In this document: positions 412 to 64,000 of the stretch, one piece after another | Layout of the letters: every line of letters starts with the position of its first letter | How positions within the stretch are numbered: position 1 is the stretch's first letter | Source: Citrus sinensis | Taxonomy: Eukaryota > Streptophyta > Magnoliopsida > Sapindales > Rutaceae | Reading direction: 5' to 3' | Assembly: GCF_022201045.2 (NCBI RefSeq) | Contig: NC_068560.1 | Location: 33,753,001 to 33,817,000, forward strand | DNA length: 64,000 nucleotides | Notes under the pieces: model-generated | What the model was told of the DNA's origin: nothing | The model's input: the letters and a program-made list of their open reading frames with translations, nothing else | Database searches by the model: none | Translations under genes and position numbers: made by a program

Positions 412-3400
412 CTTTTCCATACTTTTGCTAGAACGCTGCTGATGCACCAAATTAATGATCTTCTCATGAACTGCTCTCTTCTTCTTCATCACATCAACCC
501 ATTGACTAGATGGACCCTGCAATTCAGTTGGGTAAGGTAGACACAACATATCAGCTGGTGGAGAAAACAATTGTACATATAAAATAGGGAATATACAAAA
601 TATACAAACGAGCACAAGAAAATACCCACATTTACAGGCAAACAGCATTGCTATGAGTAAATTTTCAATAAATGCAAAGCATTATTCTCCTATGTTGCAT
701 TACAAGAATAAAATGAGAGATCTTAGTGTATAACAACATATGGATGGAGAGATAGAAGGACATAGGAATCAAAAGTAGTATTTTGCAAGGTAGCAGATCT
801 CTTTGGGTGTAAGTAGATTGGTCGAAAGAGATAGGCCTCAAGGTTTGGGCCACGAATATTCTAATAAAACATTGTCTCTAAACACAAACATAACTCTGAG
901 CTGCACAAGCTTGAAACCTTGACAAATCACAATTTGATAATATTCACTTCCACCGGAATAACTAGGTCACAACTTCTCAATTCATACTATTTTCTCAAAC
1001 ATATATACTCTTCAATTTTGTCTGTTCAATAACAAATAAATAAATAAATAAATAAAATTGTGAGATAACAATCACTATCATCTTATGGTACTGTTTCTTC
1101 AAGACCCAAGGTTGGTTGGCAGTATGGGAGTGAGAATGTTTCATAAAGGAGTGGCGAGCACATCAAGTATAGTGAATCTGCTAAGTAAATTAAAGGAAGA
1201 AGAATCCGAGAGTTGGTTTGAATTCATAAAGTTTGAGATGTGAGACTTTATGAATTTGACAAACTTCAAGTTAACAAGAAAGTAGCAGTAAAAGTAACAG
1301 AGTTAAGATGCTTTTTAAAGGCTTCAAGCTCCAAATTTTATCATGAAAGCCAGTCATCGGCATAAATAAAACATAAAAAGACATAGAATCCAAATGCTGA
1401 TCGTCAATGACAAGTAAAGAATAATTAGAAGCTAAGATAGAATATGAACGAGGAACCATTACTATAGTAAATGCAATAGAGATAGTGACTTTCTAAGTAT
1501 CTACATCTTAAGTCATAAAATACGAGATGTTACCTGCAGATGCTTTGATCTGGCTGCTTCACCTTCAGCTTCCAGAATTGTCTGCTTTGGCCTAATAGCA
1601 TATATCAGTCAGTGTTGCGTTAAAATTTTTTGCAACATCAGATTCAGAGAGAAGACAAAGAAAACCAATCCATGTATAATGTTTTAGCATAAGCATAGCA
1701 CAGACCTGAAAGCCTTCAAACGTTCAGAAAAGGCCAGTGCCATCAATTCACCACCTTCCAGAACATTTTTGAACATAGGATGCAATCCTTCGCGTGGTAA
1801 ATCTTTCCCTCTTCTAATAGACTCCTTTGAAGGTAATGGTTTTGTCTTTGAATACAAGCGGAAAGCATTTGTACAAGTTCTCTGCAAAGAATTCAGATCC
1901 GCAGACGAATCAATGATTTCTCGAACTCGGTCTGAAACAAGATCAATGACTGTCTGAGGAAATCGCCCATAGATAGTTTCTCCATTTGCAATGGCTTGAT
2001 CAATCTTGGACATAACTCCATCCATATCCAGCAAAACCTCCTCCTCAGAGGGTGCAGCTCTTATTGGTTTTGAAAGAAACAGATGAAGATCTAAAAGGTA
2101 TGCCATATCCTCAGATGTCACAAAAGAAAATGCAGTACCTGTTCGCCCAGCCCTTGCAGCTCGCCCTACTCGATGGACAAAAATTTTAGGCTTTGGGGGA
2201 AAGTCCCAGTTTATAACGTTATCAAGTAGGGGGATGTCAATGCCCCTGGCAGCAACATCCGTCACAATTAAGAACATAGTCTTTCTAGCCCTAAACCTAG
2301 ATACATGAATCTTTCGAGCATCTTGATCCATATCACCATAACATACAGAAGGCTCTAAACCCTCTTCTCTGAACAATACATTAAGGAACTCCACATGATG
2401 TTTCGTTGAAACAAAGATCAATGTCTGCTGATCAGAACTAATATGCTCCCTTATCATATACAGTAATGCTGCATGTTTTTCCTCCTGCCGTAGAGTGAAA
2501 AAGGCAAGTTTCAAGTCAGGGCTAATCTTAGTGTCCACATCAAGTCGCACAAGATGAGGGTCACGGAGTCCAGCCTTGGCAAACTCAGCAAGTGCACTTG
2601 GTAATGTGGCACTAAAAAGCAAGGTCTGACGGTTCTCACTGAGCTGGCCAAGGATTTTATGTAACTGCTCAGCAAAACCCATGCCAAAAAGACAATCTGC
2701 TTCATCAAAAACAACATACTCCACTGATTTTAAGGACATGTCCTCAACCTCGGACAAATGGTGCATGAGCCTACCAGGAGTTGCAATTATAATATCTGGG
2801 TTCTGTGCTAATTCCTCAAACTGACTTTCCATGCTGTCCCCACCAACCAGTAAACTAATACGAAGATCTACAGCAGAGAAAAGATTATAACACTTCATCA
2901 ATCCAGGCCGGAAGAAACACCATTCAAGTTAATTTAACAAAAAACTAGTGCAATAGTAACCATTAGTTAACATGTACTATTCAGTTAGCAGTCATACCAC
3001 TAATATAGCTTTCAAATAGCTTAAAGAGACTCTAGAAAAGAAGTCCTTAACTCCAGAACGTAGGGGATAGGTTGAATACTGAAATCGTGTTTAACTACTG
3101 AAAGACTGAAATTAGAATATCGAATAAAACTATTTATGAGGATGTGCTTTTACAGATCCGCTTTGCAGCAATTGCACAAAATAAAAGTACAAAAAAAAAT
3201 GTTAAGGATAAAAGGTAGTTGGGTTATTTTTTGGACAAGCACTTGATGCTGATTTTCTAAGAAGTTCTTTTAGCTCTAAATGCACTTCAAATATTTTTAA
3301 TTTTAGAAAAAACTATTAAATGCTATTTCAGAAAGCAGTGCCACCCAAAGGCACTTTCTATTGAAGTGCTTACAAACACACCACAACAATCTCAATACTG

Positions 3401-14581: not shown

Positions 14582-15167
14582 GAGTAAAGCTATTGGCACC
14601 CTCAAATATCCTTTAAAAACCCCTATTATAAGTACACACCATTAAACAATGTTAGAAATTTTATATTTATTATTAACACCCACTTTAATTCAAAAACTGC
14701 TCTTCTTCTAAATTTGATTTTCTCTCCAACACCCAACAATAAACATCAGCAATATTTCTGCTGCCTATCTCATTTCATGCTTTTGGTCCCTCACTCATGC
14801 AATTTCCTGTCCATCTCTTGACTTCTTCTTCATTTGCAATTTTGCTACTTGATAAACTATTTTAGTCCCACTCCTTGAATTATGTTAAGCCATTGGACAG
14901 TCCTAAGGGTTTTCAACAAAAGATTGTTGCTTGTATAACACTTTATTTTGGCTTTTTAGATGTGTAAAACTCAAAACAATTCATTACTATTTGGAATGGG
15001 ATTGATGATGCCAAGAAATCGTAACCAATTGAAAATTGTACTTATGCGGAGTATGGCACCATTTGAATTTTAGAGAGAAAAATATAGTTGATACATTTGT
15101 CCTTAAATGTAATTGTAGAAAATAGGGGTTTTATAAGTTCAATAAGGGGTTGCCAATAGCTCCACTC
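14582..15167. mobile_element. Mutator-like MITE, family A copy 1 (586 bp)
   Basis: The terminal inverted repeats begin GAGTAAAGCTATTGGCACC on the left and, read from the other end, GAGTGGAGCTATTGGCAACC. Similarity continues inward through AAACCCCTATT. The element is flanked by a perfect 9-bp duplication AAATACAAT (14573-14581 and 15168-15176). A 9-bp duplication and long TIRs are the signature of Mutator-like elements. No transposase is seen, so it is non-autonomous. The right end shares the stretch TTGTCCTTAAATGTAATTGTA with family A copy 2 at 42.4 kb. Confidence 0.88.
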
Positions 15168-35172: not shown

Positions 35173-36318
35173 TCAAGAAGTGATACCGACACCGAGGAAA
35201 TCTATGAAAGGAACTTCTTCATGATGTTTGATAGATTGATCATCTGCTTGAGCTTGTTGTGTACTCAATCTTAATTTTAAGTGTGATGGCGAGTTATCGG
35301 AAAATTTAATCACCTCCTTCTTGATCACTCCATGGCTTTCATAATCATCACCAACTTTAACATACCCAAATGGACTTGGAACAAACCTTCTATAATTTGT
35401 AACCCCAAATGAACTAGAACCGCGATAGCTGCCATATGCTGAAGAATTCGGATAACATGATCTATAAGGATGTTGGTCTGAAACTTTTGTGCTAGTATTA
35501 AAGAAATCTCCTGCTTCTCTTCTTGACAAATCCACTGAAGAATTATTTGAACTTGTCACGATTGGGGCCGCGCCAAAAGCCCATGTAAGGGAAGAACTAG
35601 GAGGTGGTGACACTGCAAAAGTCCTATCATGGTTGGGGTTTCGAAATTCAAAGATTCTACTATTTTGATCAAAGCCAAATTTTGAGCTAAGCATAGCATC
35701 TTGGGATCTTGATCTTCTTGCATGAATAAAATTTTGATCAGAAATAATATTTCCTGTGTCTTGATGACTTCTCTTTCCACATAGCTTGGATTGCTCTCTC
35801 TGCTTTCTTGCCATTATAACATGCCAATGATTCTTCACAGCATTATCAGTTCTTCCAGGAAATAGTCTTGCAATTAGTGCCCACTTGTTTCCATGAATCC
35901 GATGAGCTGCAAGTAGCCTCTCTTCTTCATCTTCTGTAAATGGCCTTCTGTTGATTCTAGGGTCAAGTTGATTAAACCATCTCAATCTGCAACTTTTCCC
36001 TTTCCCCCAAGAAAACAAAAGCCGATTATTTTATTAAAATAAAAATCATAATTCTTGATACATGTTCATGCTTATAAAATACGAATCAAGAGTTATGAAC
36101 CCTAATGATCAGGGTTAATTATATTATTCATAGATTATTATTTAATTACCTGATCTTCCTTGGAGCTTTTCAGCAATAGAATTCCAATTTTGAGCACCAT
36201 ATTGTTCAACAAGTTGCCGGAGTTTTTCATCCTCAGCAGGTCTCCAGTGACCTCGAGGACAAGTACTTGTACTGCTTTTGGTAGCATCATCACTAGAACC
36301 AGCTCCTGAATCCTCCAT
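35173..36318 (-). CDS. R2R3-MYB transcription factor, MYB52/54/56 group
   Basis: Two exons, 36150-36318 and 35173-35999, separated by a 150-bp intron, encode 331 residues. R2 runs from RGHWRPAEDEKLRQLVEQYG to SGKSCRLRWFNQLDP, and R3 from RPFTEDEEERLLAAHRIHG to TDNAVKNHWHVIMAR. The tryptophan pattern is normal, with W in both R2 turns and the usual substitutions at the start of R3. Intron 1 falls in the codon after GRSG, the classic MYB position. The C-terminal PFIDFLGVG matches the end motif I recall for subgroup 21. Arabidopsis members act in secondary wall and meristem/organ-boundary programmes; which applies here is not visible. The ATG at 36316-36318 opens an acidic, Ser-rich leader (MEDSGAGSSDDATKSST). 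Confidence 0.94.
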
Positions 36319-41878: not shown

Positions 41879-42506
41879 GAGTCGGACGACTACTAGCACC
41901 CCTCCAAGATCCTATTGAAATCCTTGTTTCAATTATATATCATTTAATACCAAAAATATCATTTATTTCTAAATGAATATTCTTTTCATTTATGAATTTT
42001 TCAATTTCTAATAATTTTTTCACTCTTTCATTCTTAATATTTGTATTTCTCTCTTCAGACTTTCTTTATTATTTAATTTCTAAAGAAAAAGATCTAAAAG
42101 AAAAAAGCAAGAAGAACATTATACTTAAGAAAATAATGAATATTTTATGGGTCAAATACAATTCTATCCTCCCTATAAATTTTGGATTCAGCAATTAGTT
42201 TGGGAATCCTTAAAAAATTATCTGCATTGGGATAAATTTTTATTTAATTTATTTTTTCACTATGTTGTATCTTAATTAAGTTGTTATGTTTAATTACAAG
42301 AATTTTGCTTTGGCTTAGAGGATTACTTTTTAAATTCAGATTATTTTAATGATAATAAAAAATTTATATTGTGCGAGGAAAATAAAATTGAAGAGAGAAA
42401 AAAAAGGATATAAATAGCTTAATTCTATTTATATTTGTCCTTAAATGTAATTGTAATATAACATGGGTTTTATGAGATTAATGAAGGGGTGTCAATAGTC
42501 TAACTC
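41879..42506. mobile_element. Mutator-like MITE, family A copy 2 (628 bp)
   Basis: The termini GAGTCGGACGACTACTAGCACCC and, from the right, GAGTTAGACTATTGACACCCCT are inverted repeats. They are flanked by a 9-bp duplication, ATTTATTAT (41870-41878) and ATTCATTAT (42507-42515), with one mismatch. The right arm shares TTGTCCTTAAATGTAATTGTA and GGGTTTTAT with copy 1 at 15.1 kb, showing one family. The inside is AT-rich with no transposase. Confidence 0.82.
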
Positions 42507-42844
42507 ATTCATTATTTAGATAAGAAATAATAAGACTCAATAACTAATTAATTATTGCATGACCTAATAAGAAAATGTCACATCATCTATCATATTAGTT
42601 GAAAATTTGGATACGAACTTTGTGTTCAAATTTTGTAAGTTTATAATTAAAATCATTGTTAAAATTGAGGGATTGAGAGGTAATTTTTTAAGTTTTCAAG
42701 ATTTGTTGATAAAAAAAAAATGATGCATCTCGTTATATAGTTACTAACTTTATTTGTAATGCGAGCTTAATTTGTTAGACTATCTTTAGTGATTTTCGTA
42801 ATATGAAAATAGAAAAGCAGCAGACACAAAGCTTCCATTCAAAG

Positions 42845-43034
42845 GTGGTGCTACACATCCCAAATTTTTTATTTAAGAAAAAAAATCGCAAATGATATGA
42901 TATTCATAAATTAGTTAGTGAGATAATACAATTAATTCACTTAAATTTTGTAAAGAATTATCAACTACTTAATGAATGACATATCACATGAGATGAAATT
43001 TAAGATAAGAAATTTTGGAAATCTATTATTACTC
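42845..43034. mobile_element. Possible small MITE (about 190 bp)
   Basis: The left end GGTGCTACACATCCCAAAT and the right end, ATTTAAGATAAGAAATTTTGG, form an imperfect inverted repeat (CCCAAATTTTTTATTTAAG against CCAAAATTTCTTATCTTAA). No clear target duplication. It is typical in size and form of plant MITEs. Confidence 0.4.
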
Positions 43035-43232
43035 AGCATTTGTATATATGGTTTCAGTAAATGAAATTCCATAGCCCTTTTTCTTTTTGGAAAGCCAGAT
43101 TAAATTAAAAGAAAGTGCAACGTGTATAAAATATTATAGGCCTAGTCCTTCGCTTGGAGCCCAATTGTAGAATGTAGAGTTTGCCTAATGGGCGTCTGGA
43201 TACCCAATTTAACTGGGACTTTTAAGAAGGAG

Positions 43233-43987
43233 AGTCAGACTACTGACACCCCTCGAAAGTCCTAATAAACCCCTCTAAATAAGATAAAAACCCATTAATT
43301 AATTAGTAGAGTTCGTCATTTTCATCAACAGCTGCGTTCTCCCTTAACGACCCTCAATGCTGCTTCGTGTAGAAAGAAAATAAGAAGTTTCATTGACGAA
43401 GAATTTGAGAGGGGAGATGAGATTTCGCCTACCCTTTTGAAAGCAATCGAGGGATCAAAGATTGCAATTAACATTTTCTTAAAGGATTAGGGTTCTTCGA
43501 AATGGTGCTTGGATGAACTGGTCAGTCAATTCACAATTAGGTAAAATGAATGCACCAGATATCTGCCGTGTCGGTCCATTTGATGTGCGGAAGCAAATTG
43601 GAACTTTGTAAAGCAATAACACGATTTTATTGGAACCCATTGAAATTAATAACACTAGGGCATAACTGTATTTCAATGAAAATCCACCTCTTTTCCATGA
43701 CTACCACTGTACAACTCAGTGGCTGGAGGATACGCCTCCGGAAATGACCATTTTCTTGTTATTAATTAATTATTATTATTATTAATGAGTATTAATTTTT
43801 CAGAACATCATTCACAAGGAGGAAAGTAGCACTTTACTAGAAAGGAATTGAATTAGGGATAGTTTTGGAAGAATTTAGGTGTTCTTCTGCAAACAATGAA
43901 TTCTTTTAAATACTTATTAGGATTTTTTTAATAGAAGTTGGGTTTTATCATGACGTTAAAGGGGTGCTAAATTGCTAATTGTCCAAT
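43233..43987. mobile_element. Mutator-like element, family A copy 3, carrying a captured gene fragment
   Basis: The left end GAGTCAGACTACTGACACCCC and the right end, read inward as GACAATTAGCAATTTAGCACCCC, carry the CACCCCT block of family A. The inner arms AGTCCTAATAAACCCC and GTCATGATAAAACCC also match it. No clean 9-bp duplication is visible, so the outer borders are approximate. Between the arms lies sequence unlike the other two copies, richer in GC and encoding part of a TIR domain. This is the structure called a Pack-MULE. Confidence 0.62.
43344..43620 (+). pseudogene. Captured fragment of a TIR-type NLR immune-receptor gene
   Basis: From 43344 the plus strand reads ASCRKKIRSFIDEEFERGDE, then ISPTLLKAIEGSKIAINIF and, past an in-frame TAG near 43488, GSSKWCLDELV. 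In TIR domains of plant NLRs this is the run from helix A/strand B (AALCRKKIRTFIDEEL) to SKWCLDELV. A second piece, in another frame at 43564-43606, reads CRVGPFDVRKQIGTL, matching the later TIR block YHVDPSDVRKQTGTF. So the fragment covers a large part of one TIR exon with at least one stop and one frameshift. No NB-ARC or LRR part is present. It sits between the arms of a Mutator-like element. Confidence 0.75.
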
Positions 43988-44019
43988 TAAAATAAATAAA
44001 TAAATAAACAAATGGTACT

Positions 44020-44722
44020 TGTGATTTACGATTTAAGTTCTTGCCCTTACTTTTTTTTTTACAATAATATTCTTGATATTAATTTATTTATCTTTTAAAA
44101 TGTTAATTTTAAGAAATTAGTTGATAATTATTTATTAGCAAATTAACCAATAAATATAAATAAAAAAGAACTAGTAATTGCAACAATCTTTCTAATGAGT
44201 AATGATATAGCCACAAACTCTTGTACAAACTGATGTGGCATGATAATATTGGTTGAATTAAATATCACTCTACCCACATGATTTGTTTTTATTATTTTAT
44301 ATTTTCATTTAACCAATAAATTAATGCCGCGTCAGTTTGTACAAGATAAATTCATACAAGAGTTTGTGGCAGTATCATCACTCCTTTCTAATAATTATTT
44401 TCAAATAAACCAACTTAACACAATTTTATATTCTTGCAATGATCTTATTAATAATTATTTTATACGAAATTAATTTATAAAAAATCATCCTTATAATAAT
44501 AATAATAACAATTTTTATGTTACTTTTAAAGTTGATTTGATAAATTATCATTTTTTATTTTCATTAATATCTCCCATGATATTTTTGTAAGGGTATTGTT
44601 GTAAAAAGAAAGAAAAATTAAGAATAGGAATGTAACAAATTTAACAGTTGAATTTTTTTTTTAAATATAAGGATTAAATAGATATTTAAGTCTAACTATA
44701 AAAACTAGATGATCATTTATCC
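44020..44722. mobile_element. Dispersed repeat C copy 2, split by a MITE insertion
   Basis: It shares with 31760-32308 the blocks AATTAACCAATAAATA, the ATAATTATT motif next to AATCTT, CTTTTAAAG, TTTGATAAATTATC and GGGTATTGTTGTAAAAA, in the same order. The right end (from the right: GGATAAATGATCATC) matches copy 1's right end. The left border is uncertain. Confidence 0.62.
44197..44383. mobile_element. Mutator-like MITE, family B (187 bp), nested in repeat C
   Basis: The left end GAGTAATGATATAGCCACAA and the inverse of the right end, GAGTGATGATACTGCCACAA, are near-perfect inverted repeats; both continue with ACTCTTGTA. The internal blocks TTGTACAAACTGATGTGGCA and TGCCGCGTCAGTTTGTACAA pair as well. 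A perfect 9-bp duplication CTTTCTAAT flanks it (44188-44196 and 44384-44392). Copy 1 of repeat C has a single CTTACTAAT at the matching point, that is, the empty site. Confidence 0.9.
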
Positions 44723-48543: not shown

Positions 48544-50307
48544 ATGTCGTTAGTTAGTTCTCCAGAGCCATCTGCTACTTCATATAGAAAAACGAAGCTC
48601 TACACTTTGAAGGGAAGCGGTCATAGCTCTGCTTTGTCTACCCAAGCATTTGGCTCTGATAAGCATAAGATGATGTGTCAGACTGACTCTTACTCCAGTG
48701 AGAATTATGAGGATTATATCCTTGACTCCCCAACAGAAGAACTAATACATCCATCAAGTTCTGCCGACTCAGGAAATTCATTTCAGCGACAAGGTGCCCC
48801 TTCTCACCAGCTAAGAGCTGGTTCGAGCTTCCCCATGGCTGCTCAGAGCCCACTGGACAGTTCTTTTATGTCCATGAGACGTTGTCATGGGTATCAACCC
48901 AGTTTTGAATCAGGTTACTTGGAAAATCAATGCCCAGATCCTGTTGATTATGACGAAGATACAATGAGATTAAAGCTTCAAGAACTGGAGAGAGCACTGC
49001 TTGATGATACTGTTGGTGATGAAGATGATGACATGTTTACCACTATTCAAAACATGGAAGTTGAAGGTGAATGGCCTGAACCTGTCCAGAACGTGCCCTT
49101 CCATGACTCTCCCAAGGAGTCTTCATCCTCAGATTCTATACTCAGCAGCATCAGCAGCAACAAAGAAGTATCACAATTATCTCCTCGGACTCTTAAACAG
49201 TTGCTTATAGATTGTGCTGCTACACTTTCTGATGGAAACATTGAGGAAGCAACAACTATAATAAATGAACTCCGGCAGATGGTTTCAATTCAAGGAGATC
49301 CTCCTCAGAGGATTGCAGCTTACATGGTGGAAGGTCTTGCAGCTCGCATGGCTGCCTCTGGCAAGTTTCTCTATAAAGCTCTAAAATGCAAAGAGCCCCC
49401 TTCTTCTGACAGACTAGCAGCAATGCAGATCCTCTTTGAGGTGTGTCCTTGTTTTAAATTTGGATTTATGGCAGCAAATGGTGCAATTATAGAGGCATTT
49501 AAAGGTGAAAAGAGAGTACATATAATAGATTTTGACATAAATCAAGGTAGTCAATATATAACACTGATACAAACAATTGCTTCTCTGCCTGGTAATCGAC
49601 CTCACTTGAGGTTAACTGGGGTTGATGATCCAGAGTCAGTTCAACGTCTGGTAGGTGGCCTTCAAATTATTGGGCTAAGACTTGAGAGTCTAGCAGAAGC
49701 GCTTGGAGTGCCATTTGAGTTTCATGCAGTGCCCTCAAAGACTTCGCTTGTTACACCATCAATGCTGGAGTGCAGGCCTGGGGAAGCACTTGTAGTGAAC
49801 TTTGCTTTCCAGCTTCACCACATGCCCGATGAGAGTGTTTCAACAGTAAACCAGAGAGACCAGCTACTCAGGATGGTTAAGAGCTTGAATCCAAAGCTTG
49901 TAACTGTTGTTGAACAAGATATGAACACAAACACTTCCCCATTTTTCCCAAGGTTTATTGAAGCCTACAATTACTATTCTGTTGTGTTTGAGTCTCTTGA
50001 TGCAACTCTCCCAAGAGAAAGTCAGGATAGAATGAACGTCGAACGGCAATGCCTGGCACGTGACATTGTTAACATCATTGCATGTGAGGGAGAGGAACGG
50101 ATAGAACGGTATGAGCTTGCAGGGAAATGGAGGGCAAGGATGACCATGGCTGGGTTCACTTCATGCCCAATGAGTGCTGATGTGACTGATATGATTCGGA
50201 AACTTATAAAGCAATACTGTGACAGGTACAAGTTGAAGGAGGAATTGGGTCTACTGCATTTTGGGTGGGAAGACAAAAGCTTGATCGTTGCTTCTGCATG
50301 GAAGTAG
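48544..50307 (+). CDS. SCL1: GRAS transcription regulator, SCARECROW-LIKE 1 type
   Basis: An intronless frame of 587 residues. The N-terminal ~210 residues are acidic and Ser-rich, with YILDSPTEELIHPS and RLKLQELERALLDD, segments seen in the PAT1/SCL1 branch. The GRAS domain runs from about 215 to the end: LHR I (LKQLLIDCAATLSDGN), VHIID (KRVHIIDFDINQGSQY, near 327), LHR II, PFYRE (FPRFIEAYNYYSVVFESLD), RVER (MNVERQCLARDIVNIIACEG) and SAW (GWEDKSLIVASAWK). Nothing essential is missing. GRAS proteins of this branch work in the nucleus; PAT1 relatives act in phytochrome signalling, while SCL1's own role is poorly known. The length is close to Arabidopsis SCL1 (593 aa, from memory). Confidence 0.95.
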   Translation: MSLVSSPEPSATSYRKTKLYTLKGSGHSSALSTQAFGSDKHKMMCQTDSYSSENYEDYILDSPTEELIHPSSSADSGNSFQRQGAPSHQLRAGSSFPMAAQSPLDSSFMSMRRCHGYQPSFESGYLENQCPDPVDYDEDTMRLKLQELERALLDDTVGDEDDDMFTTIQNMEVEGEWPEPVQNVPFHDSPKESSSSDSILSSISSNKEVSQLSPRTLKQLLIDCAATLSDGNIEEATTIINELRQMVSIQGDPPQRIAAYMVEGLAARMAASGKFLYKALKCKEPPSSDRLAAMQILFEVCPCFKFGFMAANGAIIEAFKGEKRVHIIDFDINQGSQYITLIQTIASLPGNRPHLRLTGVDDPESVQRLVGGLQIIGLRLESLAEALGVPFEFHAVPSKTSLVTPSMLECRPGEALVVNFAFQLHHMPDESVSTVNQRDQLLRMVKSLNPKLVTVVEQDMNTNTSPFFPRFIEAYNYYSVVFESLDATLPRESQDRMNVERQCLARDIVNIIACEGEERIERYELAGKWRARMTMAGFTSCPMSADVTDMIRKLIKQYCDRYKLKEELGLLHFGWEDKSLIVASAWK

Positions 50308-62790: not shown

Positions 62791-64000
62791 TTGTTTTGCA
62801 TGCATGGTCGTAGGTCATTATTACCCAATCTTGAACCTATAGACCTTGAACTTGAGAAAACACTTCGCACACACAAACAAGTAAAAAATAAAATGGATTT
62901 GCAACCACAGGAGAGACCATTTAAAGATTATTTCAGTCCTTTAGTAAATTTGAGCACATCATGTATAAGATACCCAAATGTAGCTGCTAGGAGCTTTGAA
63001 TTAAAACCTAGTGTGCTAAATTGTCTCCCCACATTTTATGGCCTAGAAAATGAGGATCCATATAATCATCTGAATGATTTTCATGCCATTTGTCAAACTT
63101 TTAAATACGAAAATTTTTCAGATGATGATGTTAAACTCATATTATTCCCATTTTCTTTAAAGGATAGAGCTCGTTCATGGTTAAATACTTTGCCTGCTAA
63201 TAGCATTACATCATGGGAACAAATGGTTACAAAATTTTTGAATAAATATTTCCCAGTGCATAAAACCAATGCTATTCGCAGGGAAATCTCGGAGTTTACC
63301 CAGAGAGAGGACAAACAATTTTTCGAAACATGGGAGCGATTTAATGGGCTACTCTTGAAGTGTCCACATCATGGGTACGAGAAATGGCACCAATGCCAAT
63401 ACTTTTTGGAGGGATTACTACCAAATGTGCAAGAATGGCTAATGGCAACAAGTGGAGGAGAGCTAATGTCAAAAAATGCATAAAAAATTTGGGAATTCTT
63501 CCAGCGACAAGCAGATAATTCCCAACAACGGAGTCGATCACTCAGGACTACTAGAAGAATTAAAGAAGTGAATGAGGTTCAAATTGGCGAATTAACTTCA
63601 GGAATCAAAGAAGTCAAGGAGATGGTTGAAGGTCTTGCTCGACAAATAGCATCGTTATCGACTGCTAAATCAACAGAATCACATGACCATGACTCATACT
63701 CATATCAAGCCAATGCCATAGGTGTAATGAAAAAACCATCGAATTATAACCCATACTCCAACACATATAACCCTGGATGGAGAGACCACCCCAATTTTTC
63801 ATGGTCTCAAGGATTCCAACAGAATGGACCAGCAGCTCCAGCTCCACCAATGCAACCAATTCCACAAAATCCTCAAGCCTCTCAGCCCCCATTCAGACCA
63901 TATAATCAGAACCAGAACTACACTCAGCCCAGACCATGGGAGGATGCATTCCAGAATTTCAAGAATGTTACTCACTCCACAATTGAGCAACAGAACTGCA
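62791..64000 (+). pseudogene. gag region of the retroelement (fossil, partial)
   Basis: The sequence encodes a plant retrotransposon gag domain: a block around FPFSLKDRARSWLNTLP, then SWEQMVTKFLNKYFP and FFETWERFNGLLLKCPHHG, all typical of the capsid part. Further right the gag-like motif NPGWRDHPNFSW and a Pro/Gln/Asn-rich stretch continue to the window edge. It looks broken; protease and polymerase are not in view. Confidence 0.8.

Follow-up and report, generated by a model that had tools for sequence, protein, structure and literature searches.

The question raised by this locus is whether a short, repeat-flanked stretch of the Citrus sinensis genome is a Mutator-like element that captured part of a TIR-type immune-receptor gene, as a preliminary description proposed, or an ordinary relic of such a gene (NLR) between repeats. 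The locus lies in a window of 64,000 nt, i.e., the whole stretch of DNA analyzed, and genome searches were run on the assembly from which the window comes (299.7 Mb in 11 contigs). The reading preferred here, with a probability of roughly 86%, is that the element, referred to as A3, is Pack-MULE-like: a small non-autonomous Mutator-type transposon in which part of a TIR-coding exon was copied between the terminal arms. It is based on arms that belong to one family, 9-bp target-site duplications in sister copies, the sharp edges of the gene piece, and a second genomic site where the piece accompanies the left arm. The weak points are the lack of a duplication around A3 itself, the lack of a linked autonomous partner among the tips and candidates listed, and the second site (C5:3.1 Mb), where a left arm alone was recognized. 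The features discussed below are as follows.

43232..43989, + strand: A3, read as a Mutator-like element, non-autonomous and decayed, that captured a TIR-exon piece (position of the right end approximate)
43232..43352, + strand: left terminal arm of A3, 68% match to L043 1707-1841, inverted copy of the right arm
43353..43607, + strand: captured TIR-domain exon piece, pseudogenised, 255 nt (based on Pfam TIR, frame, genome match, and alignment)
43493..43519, + strand: 27-nt exact match, encoding SSKWCLDEL, to at least five TIR loci (among the six best rows; L005 and L015 are one place)
43608..43714, no strand: interior stretch of A3, no other copies found
43715..43989, - strand: right terminal arm of A3, 67% match to L043 2156-2398
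14582..15167, no strand: A1, sister element without the TIR piece; target-site duplication AAATACAAT (9/9), matching tips
41879..42506, no strand: A2, sister element without the TIR piece; target-site duplication ATTTATTAT/ATTCATTAT (8/9), matching tips

The element and its family

The left tip of A3, GAGTCAGACTACTGACACCCC, is similar to the tip of its family, and both arms match the ends of a sister element on contig C3 (L043, see below) with order and orientation kept. The two arms form terminal inverted repeats in which 72 of 99 aligned bases (73%) are identical, and the right arm has eight further partial matches in the genome. A genome search with 43596-43760, covering the interior stretch 43608-43714, returned the self-match only. 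No target-site duplication could be recognized around A3: the score at the expected place is 5/9, and scanning 480 offset pairs raises it to no more than 7/9, a value that 95 of 200 random pairs of places reach or exceed as well. Since the arms are 73% alike over their aligned part and the right tip is altered, A3 is probably old. The element had originally been placed at 43233-43987; the element itself stands, and its ends have shifted to about 43232-43989, the right one being without a target-site duplication to fix it. Adjoining A3, the stretch 44194-44386 contains pairs of inverted repeats (41 and 44 nt, with 80-82% complementarity) and looks like a separate short hairpin element. A 160-nt stretch at 42858-43019, which aligns to its reverse complement with 65% identity, is possibly another.

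The arms had been described as resembling two other elements of the same family, and they do represent one repeat family. These two elements, A1 and A2, were not shown by a self-comparison of the window with 42800-44500, because AT-rich matches dominate it, and they were found with L043 as query together with the tip pattern. For A1, nine places including itself cover at least 467 of the 611 query bases (40 candidates scored); for A2, at least 40 places including itself were obtained (40 scored of 253 candidates). These DNA searches with A1 and A2 gave family-like matches alone among the 40 scored candidates each. L043 (C3:47.749 Mb, L043:1717-2409) is a 693-nt sister element that is collinear with the arms of A3. 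With up to two mismatches, the family tip GAGTYDGACTATTGGCACCCC has 745 matches in the genome and its reversed control has none, so that the arms belong to one family rather than being the unrelated repeats that had been named as the alternative.

Target-site duplications were assessed in the other copies examined (n = 11: A1, A2, L043, L053-L059, and L062), leaving out L057, L058, and L059, which have no clean tips. MULE target-site duplications measure 9-11 bp. In all eight copies with two clean tips, 9-bp duplications were found, scoring 9/9 (A1, L043, L053, L056, and L062) or 8/9 (A2, L054, and L055), while the chance of at least 8/9 at a fixed offset in the window is 0.0005. L043 and L053 share flanks and represent one duplicated site, and the sites are therefore seven in number when counted independently. 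Long terminal inverted repeats were present as well, with 94/128 (A1), 152/215 (A2), 163/222 (L043), and 70/95 (L062) identical over aligned bases. Together, the duplications in sister copies and the long terminal inverted repeats uphold the assignment to Mutator.

One member, L062:24-4069 (C1:6471403-6475448), is 4,046 bp long, bears the tips of the family, and is flanked by a 9/9 duplication; none of its ORFs exceeds 97 aa. No MULE transposase was seen between two facing tips when 150 of 899 candidates were compared by eye with 100 of the 745 tips. A family tip with one mismatch at C1:22270001 and a MULE transposase domain at C1:22279779 are 9.8 kb apart, the sole pair under 10 kb noticed by eye among those listed; this transposase is possibly the autonomous partner, or the proximity is due to chance.

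The same family has a subfamily that carries a piece of a different gene. The L043 group comprises eight near full-length places, four of them at 95-100% and four at 82-86% identity, namely, C3:47.749 (L043), C3:48.00, C6:1.67, C3:46.60, C5:36.81, C1:3.50, C7:9.68, and C8:26.74 Mb. Besides L043 itself, three places are thus 95-99% and four 82-86% identical to it; given the 95-99% identity, some members of the group moved rather recently. The places at C3:47.75 and C3:48.00 Mb have their flanks in common. In this group, about 109 nt derive from a MurB_C gene and are oriented in reverse. The Pfam MurB_C match is slightly below the Pfam cut-off in L043 (E=2.4e-5) and L054 (E=1e-5), and exceeds it at three further group places (C7, C1, and C8); in the other three of the eight, the MurB_C stretch is covered by the DNA match. 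C6:23708856-23709128 is the sole strong MurB_C place in the genome (E=8.4e-30), and is the probable donor, its gene being 83% identical to the piece at the DNA level over 109 nt. Duplications around MurB_C carriers occur at four independent sites (L043/L053, L054, L055, and L056), which supports that these copies moved as a unit. This capture is the clearest sign of Pack-MULE-like behavior in the family.

The TIR piece and its origin

Between the arms of A3, translation of the TIR piece confirmed the frames that had been noticed from the sequence: SFIDEEFERGDE and SKWCLDELV are in one frame, and VRKQIGT is in another. The coding-like sequence is from a TIR domain, as had been proposed: Pfam TIR was matched at E=7.7e-8 by the open 49 aa of 43341-43487, and at E=4.3e-13 when the in-frame TAG at 43488-43490 was read as X, so a TIR hit is present. 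Relative to the TIR locus L010, the piece has deletions of 1, 5, 3, and 2 nt between 43524 and 43540. Its absence from the two other copies in the window also holds, since BLAST of the piece against the whole window gave self alone below E=1e-3 and no match in A1 or A2 up to E=1.

The whole-element genome search that the preliminary description had suggested recovered both donor-type TIR loci and sister elements. It gave at least 44 matches (40 scored of 82 candidates), and by our own count at least 36 places match the TIR part of A3 alone (40 of 82 candidates scored). The best TIR match listed, C3:35002534-35002795, is 78% identical over window 43353-43603; this locus is an open TIR exon with the start MASPSFGQTSQTKYDVFLSFRGEDTRDNF, and its TIR match has no internal stop. 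Donor-type TIR genes are thus present on C3. For both TIR (C3) and MurB_C (C6:23708856), a fragment of a host gene lies between the arms and a gene of the donor type is present at another genomic location. A perfect family tip was also observed at C3:34660209, between the TIR loci of the C3 cluster, and the family therefore also inserts among the possible donors.

The edges of the piece are sharp. Among 27 TIR loci, the match starts at 43353-43358 in 18, at 43371-43373 in six, at 43433 in two, and at 43345 in one, and it ends at 43602-43607 in 23, at 43524-43525 in three, and at 43614 in one. No gene sequence beyond the piece was found, as matches among these 27 loci reach at most 43345 on the left and 43614 on the right. 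These edges bear on the alternative that A3 is the ordinary remnant of an NLR gene, with repeats on either side that are unrelated or were inserted separately. Such a reading could account for the absence of a target-site duplication, and relics of this kind exist in the genome, e.g., L049 on C2. However, a mere 255 nt of one exon is left in A3, with sharp edges adjoining arms that are mutually inverted and collinear with the 693-nt sister element, and the piece recurs behind the family left arm at C5:3.1 Mb. L049 (C2:6597000-6600500) was first suspected to be a further copy, given a match start at 43319, and was rejected as such: it reads as the relic of a TIR gene, disrupted by several frame breaks and with a start region of its own, and the family arm is absent from the stretch looked at. 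By contrast with A3, it retains the start region and sequence beyond 43607. An ordinary relic is accordingly considered improbable, and capture of a TIR-gene piece by a Mutator-like element, as originally put forward, is sustained by the Pfam TIR match, the one-family arms, and the sharp edges.

A second occurrence and the number of captures

The TIR piece was also detected at C5:3.112 Mb (L041 and L014) and C5:3.182 Mb (L042 and L036), which are copies of one duplicated site, as their flanks are shared on both sides. Both copies have a left arm of the family ahead of the piece, and a search of the 5-kb loci for a right arm found none. The piece is therefore known from two sites, namely A3, without a duplication, and C5:3.1 Mb, where no right end was found. 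At C5:3.11/3.18 Mb, the piece ends earlier, at about the equivalent of window 43481. When the window is compared with C5:3.1 Mb, the gene-side left edge is equal within a few bases, and the two junctions differ on their arm side by about 45 nt. In L041, approximately 670 nt of extra sequence (about 2600-3270) lies inside the left arm and is absent from the duplicate L042; this is perhaps a nested insertion.

The relationship of these pieces to TIR genes was assessed with an unrooted tree of 29 rows and 132 columns, from which 7 of the 37 TIR loci (L001-L007) had been dropped as identical to others, and L030 and L038 as having too few letters (29 of 31 rows used). The window piece, L014, and L036 form one clade (support 95/95), found in 92% of 200 bootstrap trees, which adjoins L010 and L011 (85/85). 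At 43356, 43412, 43467, 43471, and 43480, positions chosen after the alignment was seen, the window and L014 share a base that occurs in at most one of 26 gene rows. A topology constrained to place the window piece with L010 was only marginally disfavored (p-AU 0.055); the test spoke somewhat more strongly against grouping L014 and L036 with L016 and L017 (p-AU 0.030).

The three-copy clade thus favors one old capture, and a single capture with subsequent deletion is, on these sequence comparisons, favored over several captures, short of proof. The alternative of two independent captures from similar donors, one for the window copy and one for the C5:3.1 Mb copy, would fit the difference of about 45 nt on the arm side of the junction, the different right edges, and the value of 0.055 obtained for the window with L010. 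It is at odds with the near-equal gene-side left edge, the rare bases common to the window and L014, the 95/95 clade, and the p-AU of 0.030 for L014 and L036 with L016 and L017, and is regarded as unlikely; the window copy would be a Pack-MULE either way. Under the single-capture reading, a donor gene would have been copied a single time, probably through repair synthesis, and the closest living donor-type TIR genes are those on C3; the element would then have moved on C5, and the TIR piece would have decayed since. A3 is today most likely an inert relic.

Related systems and possible small-RNA action

Gene-piece capture by Mutator-type elements is a known class of event, and A3 is a further case. 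In one source (PMC13317346), Pack-MULEs are given in thousands for rice. For maize, that source describes gene-capturing elements (Helitrons, Pack-MULEs, and Sireviruses) as reservoirs of siRNAs with the capacity to silence the genes from which the pieces came. Like the rice Pack-MULEs (Jiang et al. 2004, cited in PMC13317346), A3 encloses a fragment of a host gene within a non-autonomous element of Mutator type, and its piece is pseudogenised, as captured fragments there usually are (PMC13317346). Unlike those described in that source, A3 is old, has no target-site duplication, and contains a piece of a TIR-type receptor gene. Pack-MULEs outside the grasses have already been reported, e.g., 1,447 Pack-mutator-like elements in a report on sacred lotus (PMC4053705), and A3 likewise occurs outside this group. 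For Citrus, a further report has 82 Mutator families of MITEs (PMC6466647). Like A3, these are short Mutator-type elements, e.g., DTM63, for which 9-10-bp duplications were used; an autonomous partner was found neither for DTM63 nor, among the tips and candidates compared, for the family of A3. The terms "gene fragment", "captured", and "MULE" are absent from the main text of that report (PMC6466647). Among titles and the beginnings of abstracts, taken from partly incomplete lists, no TIR piece captured by a Mutator-type element was found.

The preliminary description further suggested that A3 could act on living NLR genes via antisense or small RNAs. Against 35 TIR loci, some of them overlapping, exact matches were obtained for 7 of the 235 21-mers of the TIR piece, and 33 of the 235 matched when one mismatch was allowed, while none of the 235 21-mers of a control stretch matched below three mismatches. 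Such action would be in line with these exact 21-mers (7/235 versus 0/235 in the control), with the 27-nt stretch that at least five TIR loci share without a mismatch, and with the capturing elements of maize, which are described as siRNA reservoirs able to silence donor genes (PMC13317346). On the other hand, the 27-nt match is what homology to a conserved motif produces, and it implies no more than that small RNAs from A3 could match; homology alone explains it, such that an NLR relic would match likewise. In addition, the piece is a pseudogene, no inverted second copy of it was found within the window, and Rfam gave nothing at gathering score over the window. Action on NLR genes is considered very unlikely. 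Of the window's ten open frames that reach 150 aa or more, the Pfam-bearing ones nearest to A3 are those of a MYB (35176-36018, - strand) and a GRAS protein (48544-50304, + strand). An open frame with a retrotransposon gag domain match was noted at 62791-63480.

It is likewise very unlikely that this eudicot Mutator-type family both captures host gene pieces repeatedly and, by way of its TIR-carrying copies, feeds small RNAs that match a set of living TIR-type NLR genes on C3 exactly and help to dampen them. What the locus does indicate is that one small Mutator-type family has taken sequence from no fewer than two host genes that are unrelated to each other, one for a TIR-domain immune receptor and one of the MurB type, and that this family offers defined places for testing whether captured NLR pieces ever yield small RNAs.
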